Shown here piece by piece: positions 60,934 through 62,299 of a stretch of DNA of 64,000 nt. Each line of letters starts with the position of its first letter. Position 1 is the first letter of the stretch. The notes beneath the pieces are model-generated. The model searched no databases. It was given only the letters and a program-made list of their open reading frames with translations, and had not been told where the DNA came from. This stretch comes from Lysinibacillus parviboronicapiens. Lineage in GTDB: Bacteria > Bacillota > Bacilli > Bacillales_A > Planococcaceae. The translations under genes and the position numbers were made by a program. Location: assembly GCF_003049575.1 (NCBI RefSeq), contig NZ_PYWI01000009.1:62001-126000 (forward strand), written 5' to 3'.

Positions 60934-62103
60934 TTAATTAGAAGTCGGGTTTTCTTGAGATAATGGTGCTCGTTTCAGTGAAAAAACAGCACATGCTAAT
61001 GCACATAAAACTAATACAGCACCAAAACTTGCTAAATCCATGACAGAACCTGTCATTGCAAACAATGCTCCACCAACTGCTGATCCTATGGATATACCGA
61101 TTTGTAAAGCCGCAGTATTTAAACTTTGTTGAATATCCGATGTTTGAGGGTCCGTTTGTATTAAATAGTTTTGTAAAGGCGGTGTAAGGGCCCAACTAAG
61201 TGCTCCCCACAATACTGTGACAATTAAAAAGAGCGGGAAAGCTATGATTGTATAAGGAATCGAAAATAGTACAATTGCGAATGTCGAAATAACAATTACA
61301 ATAGCTTTGCCAGAACCTAATTTGTCGCTTAACCATCCACCAATGGCATTGCCACTTACAGACGCGATACCAAATATAAGATAACAAATGCTTATCCAGG
61401 ATGAATTCAAATCAAATGCCTCTACTAAAAATGGTGTGAAATAAGCATAAAGCATATAATGACCAGCTAGCATAAATAACGTAGTCAAATGGGCACTCGA
61501 TATTTTTAAGTTTGCTAATGATTTAATTTGAACTTTTAAAGGTGTAACCTCTACCACTGGCATTTTTTCTAACAGTAAATAAATTAGTATCATTGAAACT
61601 GTTGATAGTAATCCTATCCCTAAGAAAACAGTACGCCAACCAAAGGCTTCTGTTATAAATATCCCCATTGGAACACCTATTACAAGGGAAGAACTGACCC
61701 CAATAAAAATAAGCCCCAGTGCTTTTGCGCGATGTCTTGGCTCTACAATTTTTGTTGTAATTGTGAGTGACAGAACAATCACCAATGCCGTACTCATTGC
61801 AGTTATGATTCTAGCAATCATCACTGTGAGGAATGTAGCACTGAAGAATGTCATAATATTGCCTAAAGTGAAAACCAATAAAGCAAGAAGATACAAGCGT
61901 TTCCTTTCCACTTTTGCCGTTATTGATAAAAGTACAGGAGCAGAAATGGCGTACACTAACGCAAAAATAGTAATGAGCTGCCCGGCTGTCGCTAACGATA
62001 CATTTAAATCATCTGCAATATTAGGTAGTATCCCACCTACAATTAACTCTACTAATCCGACTGCAAAAGTAGTAGCAGCCAGTATAAAAACTCTCCAATT
62101 CAT
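60934..62103 (-). CDS. pbuE: Purine efflux pump PbuE
   Basis: A 389-residue MFS protein of DHA1 type, close to B. subtilis PbuE (388 aa): AVGLVELIVGGILP in helix 1, TAKVERKRLYL in the 2-3 loop, ISSAHLTTLFMLAGHYMLYA and SDIQQSLNTAALQIGISIGS. PbuE exports adenine, hypoxanthine and guanine. The ATG at 62103 follows AGAAGGG by about 10 nt; a longer frame to 62130 is not needed. The leader carries a purine riboswitch and overlapping terminator, giving direct ligand control. Confidence 0.9.
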   Translation of the reverse strand: MNWRVFILAATTFAVGLVELIVGGILPNIADDLNVSLATAGQLITIFALVYAISAPVLLSITAKVERKRLYLLALLVFTLGNIMTFFSATFLTVMIARIITAMSTALVIVLSLTITTKIVEPRHRAKALGLIFIGVSSSLVIGVPMGIFITEAFGWRTVFLGIGLLSTVSMILIYLLLEKMPVVEVTPLKVQIKSLANLKISSAHLTTLFMLAGHYMLYAYFTPFLVEAFDLNSSWISICYLIFGIASVSGNAIGGWLSDKLGSGKAIVIVISTFAIVLFSIPYTIIAFPLFLIVTVLWGALSWALTPPLQNYLIQTDPQTSDIQQSLNTAALQIGISIGSAVGGALFAMTGSVMDLASFGAVLVLCALACAVFSLKRAPLSQENPTSN

Positions 62104-62148
62104 GAAAATCAACCCTTCTATTGCCTCCATCTTGTACGGGTTAATGAT

Positions 62149-62203
62149 AAAAAAATCCTGACTACAAAAATGAAAGCATAATTTTTGTAGTCAGGATTTT
62201 TAT
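62149..62203 (-). terminator. Riboswitch expression platform: intrinsic terminator
   Basis: Two arms (62149-62171 and 62181-62203) are perfectly complementary over more than 20 bp and end in a T-run on the leftward RNA, 45 nt before the pbuE start. The 5' arm includes the aptamer's P3 right strand, J3/1 and P1 right strand, so a folded aptamer and the terminator exclude each other. Confidence 0.85.
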
Positions 62204-62262
62204 GGTTCCTGGTAGAGACCCTCAATCCATATTATTGAGGTTATACATATCAAATTATTTTA
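62181..62262 (-). promoter_or_regulatory. Purine riboswitch aptamer, guanine-type base
   Basis: On the minus strand: J1/2 TATAAC; P2 CCTCAAT/ATTGAGG with loop AATATGG; J2/3 GTCTCTACC; P3 AGGA/TCCT with loop ACCATAAAAA; J3/1 GACTA. Each element matches the purine riboswitch consensus. U47, U51 and the loop bases are kept, and the base that reads the ligand (position 74) is C, as in guanine aptamers. P1 is interrupted: three pairs (TGT/ACA), an internal loop and an A/T helix (ATAATTT/AAATTAT). Before pbuE it should act as an on-switch, since the aptamer displaces the terminator. Confidence 0.88.
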
Positions 62263-62270
62263 CTTTAGCT

Positions 62271-62299
62271 ATATTAGCATATTGTATTTTTTCTTACAA
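62271..62299 (-). promoter_or_regulatory. Promoter of the pbuE leader
   Basis: TTGTAA, then 17 nt, then TAATAT on the minus strand, about 25 nt before the aptamer. Confidence 0.6.

Follow-up and report, generated by a model that had tools for sequence, protein, structure and literature searches.

Purine riboswitches read their ligand through the base at position 74 (xpt numbering) of junction J3/1: C gives recognition of guanine or hypoxanthine, and U that of adenine. The xpt-pbuX, purE, and pbuG guanine riboswitches are off-switches in Bacillus subtilis. PMC9756952 describes yxjA as an off-switch in the same species, and PMC7707468 describes the B. subtilis pbuE on-switch as having a terminator that overlaps the aptamer, a layout shared by the leader studied here. 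Guanine-family aptamers have also been placed on the pbuE on-platform in engineered xpt/pbuE chimeras (PMC7707468 and the work cited there); the chimera with an aptamer-invading terminator was made adenine-type (C74U) and was functional only after two extra changes. Riboswitch variants with changed ligands, including a change from guanine to adenine, are known (PMC9295807). In a search of the titles and opening lines of abstracts of the open-access literature, a scope that mostly excludes subscription papers, we found neither a natural guanine-type pbuE on-switch nor repeated flips of the ligand-reading base.

The leader and its exporter gene

Across the window (the whole 64-kb stretch of DNA analyzed), a purine aptamer (RF00167) was the sole Rfam match at the gathering score. 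It lies on the minus strand at 62268-62168 and scored 72.9 bits in cmscan, above the curated cutoff of 37 (E value of 5.5e-11), so the purine aptamer recognized in the preliminary description is present. The features of the leader and the gene are as follows.

62271..62299, minus strand, probable sigma-A promoter read from the sequence: -35 TTGTAA (62299-62294), 17-nt spacer, extended -10 TGC-TAATAT (62279-62271)
62168..62268, minus strand, purine riboswitch aptamer (RF00167; cmscan, 72.9 bits)
62247-62244/62189-62186, minus strand, aptamer P1
62240-62234/62226-62220, minus strand, aptamer P2
62219-62212, minus strand, aptamer J2/3
62211-62207/62196-62192, minus strand, aptamer P3
62206-62197, minus strand, aptamer L3
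62190, minus strand, ligand-reading base C (xpt position 74), predicted from sequence and Rfam alignment to pair with guanine or hypoxanthine
62149..62201, minus strand, intrinsic terminator in the minimum-energy fold: 5' arm 62201-62181, loop 62180-62172, 3' arm 62171-62151, U run 62155-62149
62162, minus strand, G, the matching terminator partner of base 74 in the leader fold, covarying with it in 147 leaders
62113..62119, minus strand, putative ribosome-binding site AGAAGGG, ending 9 nt upstream of the ATG
60934..62103, minus strand, predicted pbuE-like purine base exporter (MFS, 389 aa, start MNWR; Pfam MFS_1; 55% identity to the G478/L218 protein)

J3/1 of the leader reads GACUA, with C at 62190 as the equivalent of xpt position 74, as had been reported. 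The Rfam alignment places this C in an intact pocket, as in the guanine class, and both the C and the pocket are the same as in the xpt-pbuX, purE, pbuG, and yxjA guanine riboswitches. The leader folded with a minimum free energy of -35.1 kcal/mol (z score of -4.67), which none of 200 shuffles equaled, and the minimum-energy fold included an uninterrupted 21-bp terminator stem pairing 62201-62181 with 62171-62151. Its 5' arm spans J3/1 together with the 3' strands of both P3 and P1, the layout of a pbuE-type on-switch, and confirms the perfect, aptamer-overlapping terminator described earlier. Since the arm is built from these aptamer strands, the aptamer and the terminator are mutually exclusive. 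A simple terminator scanner that permits loops of 3 to 8 bases found none at the leader, probably because this loop has 9 bases.

The locus thus resembles the B. subtilis pbuE (ydhL) adenine riboswitch in its aptamer fold, in the terminator invading P1, J3/1, and P3, in the mismatch that closes P3, and in the exporter downstream. It differs from it in having C rather than U at position 74 and G rather than A in the terminator, and from the pbuE type of B. subtilis in having C instead of G at position 48 of J2/3. L3 is one A longer than in a close relative (L038), a length also found in L007, L066, L067, and L068; the extra A might weaken the switch.

We consider it very probable that the leader is a pbuE-type transcriptional on-switch reading guanine or hypoxanthine. 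The ligand is suggested by C74 together with the analogy to B. subtilis pbuE, and the on-polarity by that analogy. RNA polymerase would transcribe the aptamer first. Without ligand, the 3' arm of the terminator would invade P1, J3/1, and P3, and transcription would stop at the U run; with ligand on C74, the junction would be locked, the invasion would stall, and the exporter would be transcribed. Variants of the guanine scaffold that read 2'-deoxyguanosine or xanthine are known (PMC9295807), but a purine-class switch with such an alternative ligand appears extremely unlikely here. The same source marks the xanthine type by U51G with insertions in J2-3 and J3-1, but in the Rfam alignment the leader has U51 and no junction insertion, and U51 was found in 147/147 pbuE leaders, although this letter belonged to the search pattern.

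Transcription of the leader probably starts near 62264, from the promoter that the sequence suggests just upstream of the aptamer. TGCTA(A/C)TAT occurs at the same place in all 16 named Lysinibacillus leaders. A promoter scanner did not list the window promoter because it matches only 8 of 12 consensus bases.

Just downstream of the terminator, the exporter gene begins with its putative ribosome-binding site and ATG (62119-62101). A longer open reading frame from 62130 is a less likely start, the MNWR start being common to relatives such as L029. Pfam assigned MFS_1 and MFS_4 to the protein, and an NCBIfam scan of it found no model at cutoff (best, cmx_cmrA, 201 versus 400 bits). The exporter shares 55% identity with a protein of genome G478 encoded behind leader L218, which we take to be a B. 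subtilis-type pbuE leader and in which P1 has five pairs rather than the four seen here. Given this identity and the shared leader, the gene can be called pbuE-like as proposed earlier, with a predicted substrate range. In Lysinibacillus fusiformis M5, described as a hypoxanthine producer from then-unpublished data, pbuE was named a putative hypoxanthine transporter (PMC5105109), which gives a plausible physiological context for the predicted ligand.

Repeated changes of base 74

The state of base 74 was compared across pbuE leaders. At an E value of 1e-100, 144 of 261 family genomes had a close homolog of the exporter and 117 had no match; the order-level genome set consisted of the same 261 genomes from one family. 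The survey comprised 147 leaders: 129 of the 130 family loci fetched, leaving out L100, a 49%-identical paralog without an aptamer, and 18 of 27 class-level loci from other families, the other 9 being without an aptamer by Rfam. In these 10 loci without a pattern match, Rfam found no aptamers; that is, the search pattern skipped none that Rfam finds in these loci. Rfam placed the aptamer above cutoff in 20 of 20 leaders chosen across both types. Another 15 of the 145 family matches were not in the counts, all from genus g12, whose 24 counted loci are all U. Two apparent duplicate genomes are in the sample (L193 with L037 and L095 with L039).

Base 74 was C in 56 of the leaders and U in 91. Within the family (55 C and 74 U), both states occur in g17 (22 C, 30 U), g10 (1 C, 4 U), and g13 (1 C, 1 U); g12 (24), g16 (12), g19 (2), and g5 (1) had U only, and g1 had C in all 31 leaders (L059 to L089). 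Matching contig positions lead us to infer that g1 is Lysinibacillus, the genus of the window. Among 46 named loci, the 17 with C were 16 from Lysinibacillus and that of Bacillus ndiopicus, and the remaining 29 had U. The other families of the class gave 17 U and 1 C among their 18 leaders. The single C-type leader, L227, shares its genus code (g55) with three U-type leaders, lies on a long branch of the quick tree, and barely passes Rfam (37.8 versus 37 bits), as the weakest of the 20 leaders scanned. One pbuE leader, L186, has a J3/1 of GCUUA, with C at position 73 beside U74; this J3/1 is matched in the terminator, and the aptamer scored 58.7 bits.

The preliminary description had held that U in close relatives would suggest a sequencing error in the window. 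C was present in all 31 leaders of the same genus, and every C-type leader, those of the genus included, has G opposite it in the terminator; a one-base sequencing or assembly error is therefore ruled out as an explanation for the C.

Base 74 pairs within the terminator in 147/147 leaders (56 C-G, 87 U-A, 4 U.G, and no mismatch). An exporter protein tree was built without leader sequence by a careful method, from 129 family rows thinned to 87 plus 6 outgroup rows. On these 93 rows there were at least 10 changes of base 74 (range of 10 to 10 over 200 bootstraps), 9 of which were forced by well-supported branches. An unthinned quick tree (138 rows) also gave 10 changes, and a quick tree with class-level rows (152 rows) gave 11, of which 9 were forced. 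A single clade of the 22 C-type g17 rows against the 30 U-type rows, named after inspection of the tree, was rejected with a p-AU of 5e-46. Base 74 has thus flipped repeatedly in pbuE leaders, and its terminator partner has changed to match. The change of ligand within an unchanged on-switch architecture, as put forward in the preliminary description, holds as far as sequence can tell, but the change in the window is one of several flips of base 74 and not a single event.

A leader and its gene can in principle recombine separately, and the flips might then reflect swapping of whole leaders and not point changes in place. We regard this as highly unlikely. Close pairs that differ at base 74 match over most of their aligned bases (L098/L099, 124/134; L118/L124, 123/132; L130/L134, 114/130; L091/L092, 113/132), and the C-type leaders retain the P3 and P2 of the pbuE type. 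Moreover, L095 and L096 of genus g19, both with U74, differ at 1 of 135 aligned bases, and that base is the terminator partner of base 74. Such a pair shows that U.G states are natural and a plausible bridge, and point changes passing through a U.G wobble likely connected the U-A and C-G states. For the switch in the window, the change was most likely from U to C, in an adenine-reading ancestor.

Taken together, we think it likely that adenine and guanine/hypoxanthine recognition were exchanged about 10 times in one family, and perhaps once in another, by a single-base change that the terminator matched each time, probably through a terminator-preserving U.G pair, the input signal of the exporter being evolutionarily free while the xpt-like switches of the family stay guanine-type. 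Changes of riboswitch ligand are usually framed as splits between classes, whereas here orthologous leaders flip repeatedly from one ligand type to the other. Because related species show the U-type, U.G, and C-type states, the evolution of RNA ligand specificity can be tested with close natural pairs, and the coevolution of aptamer and expression platform is likewise directly testable.

Features kept by both leader types

Positions 19-23, 46, 47, 49-54, 72, and 75-77 were identical in 147/147 leaders, a constancy partly built in, since several of these letters belonged to the search pattern. Variation in the pocket was confined to positions 74 and 48 and, in one or two rows, to positions 24 and 73. 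These data bear on the possibility that the C arose by neutral drift, either because a multipurine exporter makes the ligand irrelevant or because the switch is dead, with the terminator covarying merely to stay a terminator. Repeated flips are compatible with weak selection on the choice of ligand, and we established no genomic feature that goes with C or with U. However, a dead aptamer would not keep the pocket around base 74 constant in 147 leaders, and when the family leaders were rechecked with any letter allowed at base 74, only C and U were found, again in 55 and 74 leaders. Drift of this kind is accordingly quite improbable, and a working switch whose ligand has changed remains our reading.

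According to PMC7707468, an aptamer derived from xpt switched on the invading pbuE platform only when its P2 tune box was paired and P3 had a mismatch next to L3. The natural C-type leaders, as opposed to the engineered chimeras, come with both a paired tune box and a weak pair closing P3: in the 56 of them, the pair closing P3 at L3 was a mismatch in 49, G.U in 7, and Watson-Crick in none, and the tune box was paired in all (54 Watson-Crick and 2 with one G.U). The 91 U-type leaders gave 87 mismatches, 1 G.U, and 3 Watson-Crick pairs at the same place, with the tune box paired in 91/91. The likeness of the two types indicates that these platform features were kept through the change of ligand. 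Our findings also suggest that the invading pbuE platform can be driven by guanine-family aptamers in nature, although this proved hard to engineer.

P1 of the window aptamer has four contiguous pairs (62247-62244 with 62189-62186) and is then interrupted. The interruption had been noticed earlier and stands, but its description as unusual does not, as exactly four contiguous pairs is the most frequent P1 length in each type within the family, found in 48 of the 55 leaders with C and in 33 of the 74 with U. A P1 of five or six pairs (counted as five or more) was found in 39 of the 74 U-type leaders and 3 of the 55 C-type leaders. Because four pairs are ordinary in the family and three are enough for pbuE function (PMC9756952), the interruption of P1 does not have to be accounted for separately.

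Correlates of base 74 and other purine switches

The raw median terminator energy of family leaders was -21.9 kcal/mol for the C type and -28.3 kcal/mol for the U type. Between C or U and P1 length, terminator strength, or presence of adenine deaminase (TIGR01178), there was no significant association in a low-power comparison of 7 to 9 independent pairs; the deaminase presence list was compiled by hand, with four genomes just below cutoff entered as present. Most simply, the exporter would relieve a general excess of purine bases, so that either base can serve as the signal.

Of 151 family genomes, 130 had one or more C-type purine switches with an xpt-like P3/L3 and none had a U-type one, as surveyed with exact patterns requiring A...U around L3, the pbuE and L005 leaders being among the forms outside these patterns. 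As read from the sequences, an A-U pair closes L3 in the four other C-type switches of the window genome, the apparent counterparts of xpt-pbuX, purE, pbuG, and yxjA, unlike in the leader studied here.

The window genome also has an adenine-type switch with the on-layout (L005; contig C82, 1599-1501, minus strand; J3/1 of GAUUA) before two tandem TIGR00730 (LOG-like) genes, with a terminator G opposite U74, a U.G wobble. A related U-type leader precedes a putative adenosine deaminase gene in seven other g1 genomes (L234 to L237 and L239 to L241; an N-terminal fragment was checked for L234), and by eye all seven have G opposite U74. A second, adenine-type on-leader before an adenosine deaminase or LOG-family gene in some g1 genomes hints at a split of signals.

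Finally, a stretch complementary to the 3' arm of the terminator was observed between the terminator and the ribosome-binding site in Lysinibacillus, Metabacillus (L021), Rossellomorea (L034), and the Bacillus pumilus group. In a shuffle test that omitted a few leaders too short for it, at most 1 of 100 single-base shuffles was as good in 0 of 52 g17, 0 of 5 g10, and 2 of 24 g12 leaders, and in 11 of 31 g1, 8 of 11 named Bacillus, and 2 of 2 g13 leaders, as well as in L021 and L034.
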